DNA of 33,633 nt from Treponema sp. Its GTDB lineage: Bacteria; Spirochaetota; Spirochaetia; Treponematales; Breznakiellaceae. Under the pieces are notes generated by a model. The model saw nothing but the letters and a program-made list of their open reading frames with translations, did no database searches and had not been told where the DNA came from. The DNA is taken from contig JAITJW010000103.1 of the NCBI GenBank assembly GCA_031278715.1, forward strand, positions 1-33,633, in the 5' to 3' direction. The position numbers and the translations under genes were made by a program. Below are positions 11,329-17,877 of this stretch, piece after piece. Numbering within the stretch: position 1 is the first letter of the stretch; every line of letters starts with the position of its first letter.

Positions 11329-12573
11329 GTGAAACTTTCAGATTTTTATTTTGATCTTCCCGAATCCCTTATCGCCCAATATCCCAGCCCCCGGCGGGAC
11401 CAATCCCGGCTTATGGTCCTGGATCGTTCAAGCGGCCGCCGGGAACACCACGTTGTATCCGAACTGCCGGCGCTTCTGGACCCCGGTTCCCTGCTGGTGT
11501 TTAACAATTCCAGGGTCCGCAAGGCCCGGCTTTCCGGCCGGTCCCTGGCTACCGGCGCGGAAGTGGAATTTCTGCTGCTGGAAAAAACGGGGAACGCGGC
11601 AGGGCCGCCCGGTCGTACCGGAGGGCCTGCAGAAGCTCCCGACGGTACCTTGTGGCGCGCCATGGTCCGGCGGGCCCGCCGCCGGCGGCCGGGGAGCCGC
11701 TATGCCTTTGCCGGCGGCGTTGAAGCGGACATAGCGGGGGAAGACGGGGAATTCAGGGTCCTCCGCTTTGACCGGCCTATTGACGATGACTGGCTGGACC
11801 GTTACGGTCATGTCCCCCTGCCGCCCTATATCAGACGGGGGGACGATGATCTTGACGGCGAGCGGTACCAGACCATCTACGCCCGGGAAACAGGTTCCGC
11901 CGCGGCCCCCACCGCGGGGCTTCACTTTAGCCCCGAACTGTTTGGATCCCTTGCGGAAGCGGGAATCGAGAGCGTCTTCATTACCCTTCACGTAGGGCTG
12001 GGGACATTTCTCCCGGTACGCACGGAAAACATCGAAGACCACCCTATGCATCGGGAGAACTATACGATTGACGGGGAGACCGCTTCCCGGATTGAAAAAG
12101 CCAAGGCGGAGGGCCGAAAAATCGTGGCGGTAGGTACCACCAGCGTCCGTACCCTGGAATCCGCATGGATCCCCGCTGCCGCGCCGCTGCCGGGAGGAAC
12201 CCTGAACCGGGGGGAGGGGAGTACCGCCGTGTTCATCTACCCCGGTTACCGCTTCAAGGTGGTGGATCAGCTTTTTACCAACTTCCACACCCCCGGCTCC
12301 AGCCTGCTCATGCTGGTATCGGCTTTCGCCGATGCTTTCGCCGATGCTTTCGCCGATGCTTTTACTGGTACTTTCAGTGGTGTGTTCACTGGTACTCCTC
12401 TTGCCGGTACTTTCAGCGACGCTTGTACCGGGACCTCCCCCGAAACGGGCGCCGGAATTTTTGACGGAGCAAGATCCCTTGCAGGCCGGGATCTTATCCT
12501 GGAAAGCTACGCCGAGGCGATTCGGGAGGGGTACCGTTTTTTTAGTTATGGGGACGCCATGCTGATACGCTAA
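11329..12573 (+). CDS. queA: S-adenosylmethionine:tRNA ribosyltransferase-isomerase QueA with inserted repeats
   Basis: Transfers and isomerises the ribosyl group of SAM onto preQ1 in tRNA to give epoxyqueuosine, the penultimate queuosine step. Family landmarks are SDFYFDLPESLIAQYP at the start, HVPLPPYI, QTIYARETGSAAAPTAGLHF, FITLHVGLGTF, TNFHTPGSSLLMLVSAFA and YRFFSYGDAMLI at the end. At 414 residues it is longer than E. coli QueA (356). Most of the excess is a 51-residue insert (12331-12483) between SAFA and GRDLIL, which are contiguous in ordinary QueA; a smaller Gly/Pro-rich insert lies near residues 87-105. Start is GTG 11329 with no clear ribosome site. Because the reading frame and all core motifs survive, I expect an active enzyme. 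Confidence 0.95.
   Translation: MKLSDFYFDLPESLIAQYPSPRRDQSRLMVLDRSSGRREHHVVSELPALLDPGSLLVFNNSRVRKARLSGRSLATGAEVEFLLLEKTGNAAGPPGRTGGPAEAPDGTLWRAMVRRARRRRPGSRYAFAGGVEADIAGEDGEFRVLRFDRPIDDDWLDRYGHVPLPPYIRRGDDDLDGERYQTIYARETGSAAAPTAGLHFSPELFGSLAEAGIESVFITLHVGLGTFLPVRTENIEDHPMHRENYTIDGETASRIEKAKAEGRKIVAVGTTSVRTLESAWIPAAAPLPGGTLNRGEGSTAVFIYPGYRFKVVDQLFTNFHTPGSSLLMLVSAFADAFADAFADAFTGTFSGVFTGTPLAGTFSDACTGTSPETGAGIFDGARSLAGRDLILESYAEAIREGYRFFSYGDAMLIR
12322..12363 (+). repeat. 12-bp minisatellite inside queA
   Basis: Three perfect copies of GCTTTCGCCGAT (12322-12333, 12334-12345, 12346-12357) and a partial fourth, encoding A-F-A-D repeats. Downstream to about 12430 the sequence degrades into related units coding T-G-T-F-S and T-G-T-P. 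The unit is a multiple of three, so copy-number change keeps the frame. Confidence 0.95.
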
Positions 12574-12627
12574 GCGGGTAAAAGATGATCGGGACTCGCC
12601 TATAAAAAACCGCTATTATGGGTCTTT

Positions 12628-13536
12628 ATGAAAGAGCAACGGGGGGCCTGGCTGGGGCAGGGGGCTATTTTGTGCTGCGCGGTCCTGTGGAGTACCAGCG
12701 GCTTGTTCATTAAACTGCTGGACTGGCATCCCCTCCTCATTGCCGGGGGCAGGAGCGCCATTGCCGCCCTGTTTCTTTTTATTGTCCGGTGTATGGCTCG
12801 CCGCAGGCAAGGGGCCGTCCCGCCGCCTGCGGGCCGGTTCCCAATCGTCATGGCGGGCGCCCTGGCCTACGCTGCTACCATGATTGCCTTTGTATGGGCC
12901 AACAAGCTCACCGCTCCGGCAAACGCGATTCTGCTGCAGTACACCGCCCCCATTTGGGCGGCTCTGCTGGGCTGGTGTCTGGTTGGGGAAAAACCCCGCT
13001 GGTTCCACTGGGGGGCTCTGGCGCTGGTCCTGGGGGGGCTTTTGATATTTTTCCGGGACGATTTGAAGGCAGGAGGGCCGGGGGCTGCTTCTACGCTCCG
13101 GGGGGATATAGTTGCCCTGGCCTCCGGCCTGTTTTTTGGGGCCCATTCGGTGTTTCTGCGGATGCAGAAAGACGGGAACCCGGCGGATTCCATGCTGGGG
13201 GCCCATCTTATCTGCGCCGTGGTGGCGCTTCCGGCCTTTATCCTCATGCCCCCGGCCCTGAATATCCGGTCCCTGGGGGCCCTTGGCTTTATGGGTGTCT
13301 TCCAGGTGGGGCTTGCCTCCCGGCTTTTTGCCTTGGGAATACGGCGGGTTCAGGCAATGCAGGCCCTCCTTATCGCCATGATCGAGCCCGTACTCAACCC
13401 TCTGTGGGTTTTTGCCGTTACCGGCGAGCGTCCCTCCCCGGCGGCCCTGGCGGGGGGCATGGTGATTATCCTGGCGGTTTTGTGTTCCTCGTTCCTGGCG
13501 CAGCGTTACCCGCCGCGCGGTATTCCTAAGCCTTGA
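12628..13536 (+). CDS. EamA/DMT-family transporter
   Basis: A 302-residue inner-membrane protein with about ten hydrophobic helices arranged as two EamA repeats: residues about 7-135 (including LWSTSGLFIKLL and the AILLQYTAPIWAALLGW segment) and about 155-295 (including SGLFFGAHSVFLRM and AMQALLIAMIEPVLNPLW). The family exports or imports amino acids and other metabolites; substrate is not predictable here. The ATG at 12628 has only a poor ribosome site. Its last three codons carry the -35 of the sigma-28-type promoter of the next gene, so its end and the flagellar operon are closely packed. Confidence 0.9.
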   Translation: MKEQRGAWLGQGAILCCAVLWSTSGLFIKLLDWHPLLIAGGRSAIAALFLFIVRCMARRRQGAVPPPAGRFPIVMAGALAYAATMIAFVWANKLTAPANAILLQYTAPIWAALLGWCLVGEKPRWFHWGALALVLGGLLIFFRDDLKAGGPGAASTLRGDIVALASGLFFGAHSVFLRMQKDGNPADSMLGAHLICAVVALPAFILMPPALNIRSLGALGFMGVFQVGLASRLFALGIRRVQAMQALLIAMIEPVLNPLWVFAVTGERPSPAALAGGMVIILAVLCSSFLAQRYPPRGIPKP

Positions 13537-13553
13537 GCGTGAAATTCCGATAA
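13527..13553 (+). promoter_or_regulatory. Sigma-28 (FliA)-type flagellar promoter
   Basis: TAAGCCTT (13527-13534), 11-bp spacer, TCCGATAA (13546-13553). Against the FliA consensus TAAAGTTT-N11-GCCGATAA this is 5/8 and 7/8 with exact spacing. It sits immediately before flgF. The -35 overlaps the end of the transporter gene, and the expected start site (about 13559-13561) coincides with the flgF ATG. Confidence 0.65.
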
Positions 13554-13560
13554 TGAGGAT

Positions 13561-14415
13561 ATGATACGGGGGTGGTACACCGGGGCCAGCGGTATGCGGG
13601 CCCAGCAATGGCGGCTTGATGCGGTGGCGAATAATCTCGCCAATATTGATACTGACGGTTACAAACGGGATGTAGCGGCTTTTAAGGCCTTTCCCGAACT
13701 GCTCCTGCGGCGTACCGATGACGACGGAGTGTACCGTCATCCCTTTGGTTCCGCCGATGCGGCCCCCATCATGGGAAGGCTGGGTACCGGGGTAGAATTA
13801 AACGAACTCTATACCGTCTTCGAGCAGGGGGCCTTAAAAGAAACCCAAAGCGACTTCGATCTTGCGCTGGATGGCCAGGGGTTTTTTACGGTGGATACCC
13901 CCTGGGGTGAACGTTATACCCGGAACGGCTCTTTCCAGTTGGGGAAGGAAGGCTACCTGGAGACCAAAGAGGGCTACCCCGTATTGGGAGAAAAAGGCCC
14001 CATCAGGGTAAAGGCCAACAATTTTCAGGTAGACAAAGAAGGTCGGGTATGGATCAACGCGGAATACGCGGACGATCCGAATCTGTTGATCTCCAGGGAA
14101 AACAACACCTGGGAAGAAACGGCCCTGTTGGACAGTCTCAAAATTGTGGACTTCGCCAAGGACCGTTATCTTAAAAAACAGGGTTCCAGCCTTTACCAGG
14201 AGACCGATGAATCCGGCCCGGCGCTGATTTCGGAGGAGAGTCGCCGGCCCCGGGTTGTCCAGGGTTTTACAGAGGCTTCGAATGTGGAACCCGTATCGGA
14301 GATGGTCAGGATGATCGAGGTGAACCGGGCTTATGAGGCGAACCAGAAAACCATACAATCCGGGGATACTATGCTGGGGACCTTGATCAACCAGGTACTC
14401 CGGTTCGGCGCATAA
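13561..14415 (+). CDS. flgF: Flagellar basal-body rod protein FlgF
   Basis: A 284-residue axial rod protein of the periplasmic flagellum. The N-terminal flagellar rod signature is clear (MIRGWYTGASGMRAQQ, then NNLANIDTDGYKRD), as is the family C-terminus (SNVEPVSEMVRMIEVNRAYEANQKTIQSGD is one block). The centre contains QSDFDLALDGQGFFTVDTPWGERYTRNGSF. It is less like FlgG than the following gene, and the paired arrangement supports FlgF; a second FlgG-type name is the alternative. The start is fixed by homology, yet the only purine-rich tract (GAGG, 13555-13558) is two to three bases from the ATG, too close for a normal ribosome site. Confidence 0.92.
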   Translation: MIRGWYTGASGMRAQQWRLDAVANNLANIDTDGYKRDVAAFKAFPELLLRRTDDDGVYRHPFGSADAAPIMGRLGTGVELNELYTVFEQGALKETQSDFDLALDGQGFFTVDTPWGERYTRNGSFQLGKEGYLETKEGYPVLGEKGPIRVKANNFQVDKEGRVWINAEYADDPNLLISRENNTWEETALLDSLKIVDFAKDRYLKKQGSSLYQETDESGPALISEESRRPRVVQGFTEASNVEPVSEMVRMIEVNRAYEANQKTIQSGDTMLGTLINQVLRFGA

Positions 14416-14438: not shown

Positions 14439-15239
14439 ATGGTTAGAAGCTTATGGACCGGCGCCGCCGGTATGATCGGCCAGCAGGCCAACATTGATAC
14501 GATTTCCAATAACCTGGCGAATGTGAATACTTCGGGATTTAAGAAGATGCGGGCCGATTTTGAAGACCTTCTCTACCAGACCGTAAAGGTTGCCGGGACT
14601 CCCGCCACAGAGGAAACGGTGGTGCCCGTTGGAATTCAGATGGGCCACGGGGTCAAACTTGCCGCCACCCAACGGATGTTCAGCCAGGGATCCCTGCAGA
14701 ATACGGAGAATGTCTACGACATGGCGATCAACGGGGAAGGTTTCTTCCGGATTCAGATGTACGACGGCAGTTGGGCCTATACCCGTGACGGGGCATTCAA
14801 AATTGATGAGGATGGACGGCTGGTAACCAGCAACGGGTACTGGGTGCTTCCCGACATCATCATGCCCGAAGGTTTTTTGCCGCAGGAAATCAACATCACC
14901 AAAGACGGCCGGGTTTCGGTCATCGTTCCCCAGATCGATGAAAACGAACCGGTAGAGGTAGGGCAGTTAGAACTCTACCGCTTTCCCAACCCCGTGGGCC
15001 TTACCGCGGTGGGGGAAAATCTTTTTAAGGTGAGCAACGCTTCCGGCCAGGCCATTGCCGGCCGCCCCGGTTACGAGGGCATGGGCCAGATCGTCCACCG
15101 GTTTCTGGAAATGTCCAACGTGTCGGTGGTACGGGAGATGGTGGACCTTATCGTGGCCCAGCGGGCCTACGAATTTAACTCCCGGACCATCCAGACCAGC
15201 GACAGCATGCTGGGGACCGCCACTACCCTGAAACGGTAG
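14439..15239 (+). CDS. flgG: Flagellar distal rod protein FlgG
   Basis: A 266-residue protein of canonical FlgG length and sequence, polymerising into the distal rod between basal body and hook. N-terminus MVRSLWTGAAGM with NIDTISNNLANVNTSGFKK, middle YDMAINGEGFFRI, and C-terminus MSNVSVVREMVDLIVAQRAYEFNSRTIQTSD (in parts) are hallmark segments. AGAGGGA precedes the ATG. It follows flgF by 23 bases. No flgA, flgH or flgI follows, in keeping with spirochaete flagella that do not cross the outer membrane. Confidence 0.97.
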   Translation: MVRSLWTGAAGMIGQQANIDTISNNLANVNTSGFKKMRADFEDLLYQTVKVAGTPATEETVVPVGIQMGHGVKLAATQRMFSQGSLQNTENVYDMAINGEGFFRIQMYDGSWAYTRDGAFKIDEDGRLVTSNGYWVLPDIIMPEGFLPQEINITKDGRVSVIVPQIDENEPVEVGQLELYRFPNPVGLTAVGENLFKVSNASGQAIAGRPGYEGMGQIVHRFLEMSNVSVVREMVDLIVAQRAYEFNSRTIQTSDSMLGTATTLKR

Positions 15240-15272: not shown

Positions 15273-15719
15273 ATGGACATAGGAGCGATTGGAACCCAGT
15301 ACCTTGAACAGTACCGCTACAGTGTAGAGAATCTGCCGCTTGCCCGTAATTCCGGACTTTCCGCAGAGACGCCTGCGTTTGCGGATTACCTGGAACAGGA
15401 TGAGAAGGCTGCAGCGGCCCCGGAAGAAGCCTCCACAGGGCCCCAAAAACCTTACGTTGACAAAACCAGTAAGCTCTACGAACAATGCCAGGAATTGGAA
15501 ACTTTCCTGGTTAAAAACCTTCTTACGGGAATGAGGAACACCGTACAGAAAAGCGGTCTCATTGAAGATGGTCTGGCCGGCCAATTTTACGAGGATATGC
15601 TCTGGGATGAATACGCCAAAAGTTTTACCCGGAACGCCGGATTCGGCCTGGCCGATCAGGCCTACCTGGAATTGACAGGCCAGCGATCCGGCCGTGTCCG
15701 CTCAACCCCGGTGAATTAG
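15273..15719 (+). CDS. flgJ: FlgJ-type rod-binding protein without hydrolase domain
   Basis: A 148-residue protein whose residues about 65-140 match the rod-binding domain of FlgJ: KLYEQCQELETFLVKNLLTG, then GLIEDGLAGQFYEDMLWDEYAK and GFGLADQAYLEL. The peptidoglycan-cleaving C-terminal domain found in enteric FlgJ is absent, as in other single-domain FlgJ proteins. It should act as rod cap or scaffold in the periplasm. AAGGAG lies upstream of the ATG. It is the last gene of the flgF-flgG run; a possible hairpin CCGGC/GCCGG (15738-15752) follows but has no T-tract. Confidence 0.88.
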   Translation: MDIGAIGTQYLEQYRYSVENLPLARNSGLSAETPAFADYLEQDEKAAAAPEEASTGPQKPYVDKTSKLYEQCQELETFLVKNLLTGMRNTVQKSGLIEDGLAGQFYEDMLWDEYAKSFTRNAGFGLADQAYLELTGQRSGRVRSTPVN

Positions 15720-16512: not shown

Positions 16513-16545
16513 TTACAGTATAGACCGATGGGTGGAGAATAGTAC

Positions 16546-17877
16546 ATGGCGTTTCTTGTCCTGTTGATCTTTTGCGGGGTTTGTGCCGCTGTTATCTTTT
16601 TTCACCGGAAGTCCGGGATTCAGGTCTCCTGGGTACAGTTCTTTGCCAAGGGAACCGACGCGGGTTTTTCCATCCGGGAGATTGAACTGCTGCGGAAGCT
16701 GGCCACCCTCTGTAACCTTGAGGATCCTTCCTCGCTGTTTTGGTCCCAGAATCAGTTGGATCAGTGTATCCGGGCCCTGGTCAGGGCCCAGCAGAGCGGT
16801 ACGCAGGGGGAAGACCTGGGGGACGAGGATTTCCTTTCCCGGCTTTACGAGTACCGCAAGAAGATCGAAATGGAAAAACCCAGAATAAAAAACGGCATCA
16901 GCAATTCCCGGCAGATCAGCGAAGGCCAGAATTTGCGAATCCTGGTCCCCGGCAGCGGGGTTTTCCGTTCCCAGGTAATCAGGAATACCCCCCAAAACGT
17001 TACCATTTCCCGCCCGGTCAATGACAAGGTCAGTTCAAATTTCTCGTGGATCGGGACAAAGATGTCCGTCTATTTTTGGAGGGAGGATGACGCGGGCTAC
17101 GTATTCGATTCGGAAGCCATAGACGAGGTGTTTGCCAAGGGTATCTCATCCCTCAAAATTTCCCATTCGGACTCCCTGTACCGGACTCAAAAGCGGAAAT
17201 CCATCAGAATAAAGATGCATAAACCGGCATACCTCTACCTGATGGGGCCGGAGGAGGAGGCCGGTAAAGCTGAGATGAGCCCCGGGGCCAGGTGTTTCAT
17301 GGAAGACCTTTCCGATACGGGCTGTGCGCTGATCATAGGCGGTCAGGCGGCTGCAGGAATGAGGATCAAGGTGCAGTTTGCCCTTAACGGTACTCCTATT
17401 TGCATGAGCGGGACGGTCCGTTCGGTAGATTACAAAGAAGCCACCCAGCGTTCCCTGCTACATGTAGAAGCCGATCCGCTGCCGCGTTACGCACAGAACA
17501 AGATCCTGGGTGAAGTTTTCGGTATGCAGAGTAACGATGAAGACGATCTTCCCTACCGGATCTCCGACGAGGCCGCCGGGGCTGTGCCCGGTGAATCCAC
17601 CGCCGCACAAGATGCAGGAAGCGATGTGGATATTCTCACTGTACCCAATGTGGAGCCGGACCGGGTTTCCGTTGCCCCCGCGGAATCGTCTTCAAGCACA
17701 TTCGTGCCGACTACCCCGCGGCCGGCCTTTAGTCCCGGTCCTTCCCCGGCCGCGACCGGCCCGCTCAGCGGGGAGCTGCCCCTGGCCGCCGGCGCGGAGG
17801 GTACGATTCCTGTAGGGACCGCTGTGGGTGATGAGCCGCCCCTTATACCATTCCCACCGGAGGGGGATATCCTGTGA
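16546..17877 (+). CDS. PilZ-domain cyclic di-GMP receptor, membrane-anchored
   Basis: A 443-residue protein with one N-terminal membrane helix (about 2-19), a cytoplasmic helical region, a YcgR-N-like beta domain (about 125-205) and a PilZ domain (about 213-325). Both c-di-GMP motifs are intact: RxxxR as R217-x3-R221 (KRKSIR) and DxSxxG as D254-LSDT-G259. The last 100 residues are a Pro/Ser/Ala-rich, probably disordered tail. It should sense c-di-GMP at the membrane and act on a partner, possibly flagellar or surface functions; the target is unknown. Strong promoter and ribosome site upstream. It shares GTGA with the next gene (four-base overlap), which suggests coupled translation. Confidence 0.93.
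   Translation: MAFLVLLIFCGVCAAVIFFHRKSGIQVSWVQFFAKGTDAGFSIREIELLRKLATLCNLEDPSSLFWSQNQLDQCIRALVRAQQSGTQGEDLGDEDFLSRLYEYRKKIEMEKPRIKNGISNSRQISEGQNLRILVPGSGVFRSQVIRNTPQNVTISRPVNDKVSSNFSWIGTKMSVYFWREDDAGYVFDSEAIDEVFAKGISSLKISHSDSLYRTQKRKSIRIKMHKPAYLYLMGPEEEAGKAEMSPGARCFMEDLSDTGCALIIGGQAAAGMRIKVQFALNGTPICMSGTVRSVDYKEATQRSLLHVEADPLPRYAQNKILGEVFGMQSNDEDDLPYRISDEAAGAVPGESTAAQDAGSDVDILTVPNVEPDRVSVAPAESSSSTFVPTTPRPAFSPGPSPAATGPLSGELPLAAGAEGTIPVGTAVGDEPPLIPFPPEGDIL

Follow-up and report, generated by a model that had tools for sequence, protein, structure and literature searches.

Leaderless mRNAs and sigma28 promoters are known separately, but we have found no description of the two recurring together at flagellar and peptidoglycan genes. 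Among the papers listed by our searches of an open-access library, titles and abstract openings revealed no sigma28-leaderless gene set, and the excerpted text of PMC11955535, PMC3656092 and PMC7438776 contains no sigma28-driven leaderless flagellar case. The closest promoter, from the same bacterial order as the genome studied here, is that of Treponema denticola flaB2, which has a CCGATAA -10 and a TTAA -35 and drives a lacZ fusion in E. coli (PMC9481697). PflaB2 is not leaderless, however: its transcription start, mapped by RLM-RACE, lies 124 bp from the ATG (PMC9481697). The leaderless mRNAs of Campylobacter jejuni have 5' UTRs shorter than 10 nt, no Shine-Dalgarno (SD) sequence and always an ATG, and relatives switch between leadered and leaderless states; the cases described in the cited part of that paper follow a sigma70 TAnAaT rather than sigma28, and its examples are stress and efflux genes (PMC3847290). 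Among spirochetes, Leptospira interrogans has about 440 mRNAs with 5' UTRs shorter than 10 nt, but according to the sections cited here cell motility is under-represented among these at 37 C, flgB has a mapped leader of 12-13 nt, and the predicted sigma28 sites named are those of flaA1, flaB1 and flaB4 (PMC5243855).

Here we describe a flagellar rod gene, flgF, whose start codon directly follows a sigma28-like promoter element. It lies in a 33,633-nt stretch of Treponema sp. DNA (the window) from an incomplete assembly of 2.74 Mb in 213 contigs, 84% complete. Its nearest Treponema sp. relatives are, we presume, termite-gut assemblies.

A sigma28-like element adjoins the flgF start codon

Upstream of flgF, TAAGCCTT is followed after 11 nt (GAGCGTGAAAT) by TCCGATAA (Table 1), and TAAG, beginning at 13527, is separated from TCCGATAA by 15 nt. 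The E. coli FliA consensus is TAAAGTTT-N11-GCCGATAA. The window letters confirm the exact FliA spacing that the first-pass annotation had reported, as well as its match of seven letters out of eight between TCCGATAA and GCCGATAA. CCGATA itself occupies 13547-13552, TGAGGAT fills the interval between TCCGATAA and the ATG (13561-13563), and the ATG starts 8 nt past the end of CCGATA. The element is kept in relatives, which was the test that the annotation had set: CCG is invariant across the first 30 flgF loci aligned, and the relatives scored have TAA or a near match 15-19 nt from CCGATA. The genome also encodes FliA (TIGR02479, 287.7 bits against a cut-off of 189.6, at G000:C146:36700-37377).

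Table 1 Features at the flgF junction and in the adjoining genes.
Feature	Position	Strand	Remarks
EamA transporter gene	12628..13536	+	stop 13534-13536 beside flgF -35
sigma28 -35-like TAAGCCTT	13527..13534	+	overlaps last codons of EamA and first base of its stop
sigma28 -10-like TCCGATAA	13546..13553	+	window letters; relatives' alignment
GAGG, SD-like, judged no SD	13555..13558	+	2 nt before ATG
Predicted transcription start	13559..13562	+	likeliest A13561 (A of ATG); inferred by transfer
flgF, rod protein, 284 aa	13561..14415	+	ATG start; TIGR02490 match above cut-off
flgG, next operon gene	14439..15239	+	own SD (AGAGGG)
FlgJ-like rod-binding protein	15273..15719	+	PF10135

The flgF start codon, which had been taken as fixed by homology, held up. 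The in-frame upstream codons (GAT, GAG, AAT, GAT, TCC and AAT) are preceded by TGA at 13540, no alternative in-frame start codon occurs between that TGA and 13561, and the FlgF proteins of relatives align with it from residue 1 onward. Because the frame is bounded by the TGA, the alignment begins at residue 1 and the protein matches TIGR02490, we regard this start as firm. The sole SD-like tract at the junction is GAGG, as near to the ATG as the annotation had said; it precedes the predicted 5' end. Over positions -18 to -5 the duplex energy is 0.3 kcal/mol, which leaves flgF with no SD at a working distance.

These features could be read differently if flgF were translated from a leadered message, made by read-through from the EamA transporter gene or from another upstream promoter, with GAGG serving as a close SD and the sigma28-like site as a relic or minor promoter. 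The EamA gene is indeed co-directional with flgF and ends only 24 nt before the ATG, and GAGG is present. Yet GAGG is confined to this genome and two others (G002 and G006) among the 27 genes with a short spacing (see below), being missing in the other 24, and read-through would not supply the message with a properly spaced SD either. EamA is co-directional only in the same three genomes, G002 and G006 being the two closest relatives. In the remaining relatives where EamA was found it is divergent (e.g., at loci L006, L061, L063 and L018), and a short-spaced CCGATA persists without read-through (e.g., at L006 and L063). We therefore rejected read-through as a general source of leaders; the leadered message from the transporter gene that had been suggested for this locus is unsupported, and a leadered flgF of any of these kinds is very improbable.

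Some neighboring features of the window are recorded here in their own right. In our genome and the two close ones, EamA appears turned round relative to most relatives where it was found. The EamA gene starts without a strong SD, and TATTAT (12614-12619) precedes its ATG (12628) by exactly 8 nt, possibly marking a sigma70-type leaderless start. Near the C-terminus of QueA (11329-12573), at about 12310-12480, is a low-complexity insert (FADAFADAFADAFTGTFSGVFTGT...). At 16545-16548, one CATG would be common to the starts of two divergent ORFs (minus strand from 16547; plus strand, encoding a PilZ-domain protein, from 16546), and these starts may be misassigned.

Two spacing states among flgF relatives

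We gathered flgF from the family and the order, keeping the best 80 of 144 relatives. The sample is without two partial family matches (G116 and G130), and L031-L060, which are not flgF, were left out of the counts. The 207 loci gave 171 distinct upstreams, loci with an identical 60 nt upstream and first 300 nt being counted once, and 170 of these were usable after exclusion of L219, where the contig ends at the gene start and there is no upstream. A site was defined as CCGA[TCA]N with a TAA-like -35, scoring at least 6 and lying within 110 nt of the start; an SD was scored present when its duplex at -18 to -5 was -4.5 kcal/mol or lower.

Distances from CCGATA to the start codon were bimodal: 27 genes had 7-10 nt, none had 11-16 nt and 126 had 17-83 nt. 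The short distances were 7 nt (five genes), 8 nt (20) and 10 nt (two, L016 and L207), and 8 of the 27 cores departed from exact CCGATA by one or two letters. In the long class the same TAA-like -35 accompanied the CCGATA. The two classes differed sharply in their translation signals. No short-class gene had an SD, against all 126 in the long class (Fisher 1.3e-30). Adding the 17 genes without a site, all of which have an SD, gives 143/143 outside the short class. Start codons followed the same division: ATG in all 27 short-class genes versus 52 of 126 in the long class (Fisher 1.5e-9), where 51 GTG and 23 TTG make up the rest. Across its sequences, then, the short-spacing class combines the element, its conserved place, the absence of an SD and the exclusive use of ATG.

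To allow for shared descent, we turned to a quick maximum-likelihood tree of FlgF, which requires at least 14 changes of state. All nine independent supported pairs agree for the SD (sign test 0.0039). For ATG the independent pairs never disagree, but half of them do not differ (median p 0.0625), and once descent is taken into account the association with ATG by itself falls short of significance. The empty zone at 11-16 nt is what would be expected if a message either starts at its AUG or needs a leader long enough to hold an SD.

The bare motif, taken without positional context, is not unusual in our genome: TAA-N15..17-CCGATA occurs 70 times, against 65 for the reversed pattern. Its place and conservation at flgF, as far as sequence comparison can tell, are beyond chance. 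Sites were found in 153 of the 170 flgF upstreams, compared with a mean of 27.8 (maximum 41) in 200 dinucleotide shuffles, and at 7-10 nt from the start in 27 of 170, compared with a mean of 1.3 (maximum 5); the shuffles placed a mean of 1.9 genes in the 11-16 nt zone.

Predicted transcription start

We used described promoters of two species to predict where transcription begins. In three treponeme genomes, the flaB2 region, located with the primers of the T. denticola study, has CCGATA ending 133, 132 and 133 nt before the ATG; in G190 the figure is 133 nt. With the mapped start, a 133-nt spacing places flaB2 initiation at base 10 after CCGATA, plus or minus one for the way distances are counted. 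Taken strictly, transfer to flgF gives U13562, one base inside the AUG, and the tolerance of one base admits A13561. The C. jejuni motif CGATwt precedes the transcription start by 6-8 nt (PMC3847290). The A of the flgF ATG is base 9 after CCGATA, and the two transfers bracket it. Since polymerases favour purines as the start base, A13561 was taken as the likeliest start.

The C. jejuni spacing also allows a leader of 1-2 nt (PMC3847290), which raises the alternative of an ultra-short leader: a start 1-6 nt before the ATG (13555-13560), giving an SD-free message that is not strictly leaderless. The distances of 10 nt at L016 and L207, and of 11 nt at three RlpA-like loci outside the family, are in keeping with this. 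The mapped T. denticola start, however, falls later, the modal distance of 8 nt makes the A base 9 and suits a start on it, and GAGG, which might form part of such a leader, is not conserved. We consider an ultra-short leader unlikely, though less remote than the leadered message discussed above.

The reading we favor, and judge to be probable, is that the flgF message is leaderless and arises from a sigma28 promoter abutting the ATG, as the first-pass annotation had proposed; the complete absence of SDs in the short class and their presence in all other flgF genes support it at the sequence level. FliA polymerase would bind TAAG-N15-TCCGATAA and initiate at, or about one base around, A13561. 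The flgF-flgG-flgJ-like message would then begin with its own AUG, and this 5'-terminal AUG would be bound without SD pairing, like those of other leaderless mRNAs. We infer all three of these elements: recognition by FliA, the exact start base and initiation by the ribosome on a leaderless 5' end.

The same layout at wall-enzyme genes

A wider search for the layout had been suggested, and in bulk it gave no signal: across 58 genomes, GCCGATA-N7,8-ATG showed no excess over the control spacing N12,13, the control being mostly equal or higher (per-genome counts were inspected, not summed). Because coding sequence dominates the matches, such a count is uninformative for a handful of genes. It does argue against an extensive leaderless regulon: either the set is small or coding noise hides it. 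Within our genome, CCGATA-N8-ATG occurs 26 times, against 12 for the reversed pattern, with most of the 26 inside genes. By eye, those that start an ORF are flgF, a gene for an RlpA-like protein and a few others (L351, L352, L356 and L357). In 16 chosen genomes (12 with a short-class flgF and four with a long one), TAA-N16..18-CCGATA-N7,8-ATG gave 47 matches against 31 for the reversed control, a weak excess, and brought up RlpA-like and glucosaminidase genes. In the counts that follow for these two genes, a -35 was not required, and the figures are raw counts.

The RlpA-like gene encodes DPBB (PF03330) and SPOR domains. In 29 of the first 30 family loci, CCGAT[A/G] lies 7-10 nt before the homologous ATG (exactly 8 nt in 25), and all 29 of these short-spaced starts are ATG; the exception has a GTG start, an SD and no CCGATA. 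Our genome's own locus (L297) has the short layout. Nineteen of 21 further family loci share it, for a total of 48/51, the two misses being L403, at a contig edge, and L410, which has an SD-bearing start. At many loci with the layout the -35 departs from TAA. Outside the family, among 23 of the matches listed (L423-L445), eight have CCGAT[A/G] 7-11 nt before the ATG, three of them at 11 nt, and one (L440) also has an alternative SD-bearing start. Five loci, from the T. denticola group, have leaders: a strong SD accompanies a CCGATA placed 35 nt from the ATG. The remaining ten are left unclassed, their start choice not being fixed by homology.

The glucosaminidase gene (PF01832) has the layout in 26 of 30 loci (25 ATG, one GTG), a count that leans towards the layout because starts were chosen with it in mind: they vary with the signal peptides, and any in-frame start with CCGAT[A/G] 5-12 nt upstream was accepted. 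The GTG is at L338, where CCGATA lies 7 nt before it, the lone non-ATG short-spaced case. Taken together, the sequences indicate that the short layout is the usual state of RlpA-like and glucosaminidase genes in the family.

A distance of 7-8 nt to the ATG, fixed across such different kinds of gene, might suggest that CCGATA is a conserved sequence for translation or DNA binding and not a promoter at all. Against this, the SD-bearing flgF genes carry CCGATA far from the start with the same -35, and CCGATAA at T. denticola flaB2 belongs to a mapped, lacZ-active promoter of the sigma28 type (PMC9481697). We give this explanation almost no weight, and continue to read CCGATA as part of a putative sigma28 promoter.

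The flagellin genes (FlaB2-like) differ. We took one locus, the best, per genome in 30 genomes of the family and order. All 30 loci have an SD; a sigma28-like site is present in 23, at 56-335 nt upstream, and none is short-spaced. In our genome the site lies 319 nt upstream. The sigma28 set would thus have two translation classes, one of flgF, RlpA-like and glucosaminidase genes, the other of flagellin, in which the leader is long and the SD strong.

Other ORFs came to our attention in these searches. L351 (G000:C54) and L264 (G013:C99) are putative lipoprotein ORFs whose ATG lies 8 nt after CCGATA, the latter with ankyrin-like repeats by eye; both may also belong to the leaderless set. L247 (G003) and L280 (G066) encode secreted proteins that by eye resemble each other, both with the sigma28 layout, and the L247 protein has no Pfam match.

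Discussion

Our results raise a broader possibility, which we advance tentatively and at somewhat less than even chances: that the sigma28 regulon of the order is split between leaderless genes for the rod and peptidoglycan enzymes and leadered, SD-bearing flagellin genes, with flgF switching repeatedly between the two states. A promoter that stays constant while the leader is switched on and off, the layout being kept or regained often, would provide a natural experiment on how a gene becomes leaderless. The layout would also offer a simple rule for locating starts and promoters in uncultured treponemes. For the cell, the split predicts that synthesis of the flagellar rod and of wall enzymes escapes any leader-based control to which flagellin could be subject. 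If this is true, one sigma factor feeds two kinds of message under different controls of initiation, one based on the SD and leader and the other on a 5'-terminal AUG.
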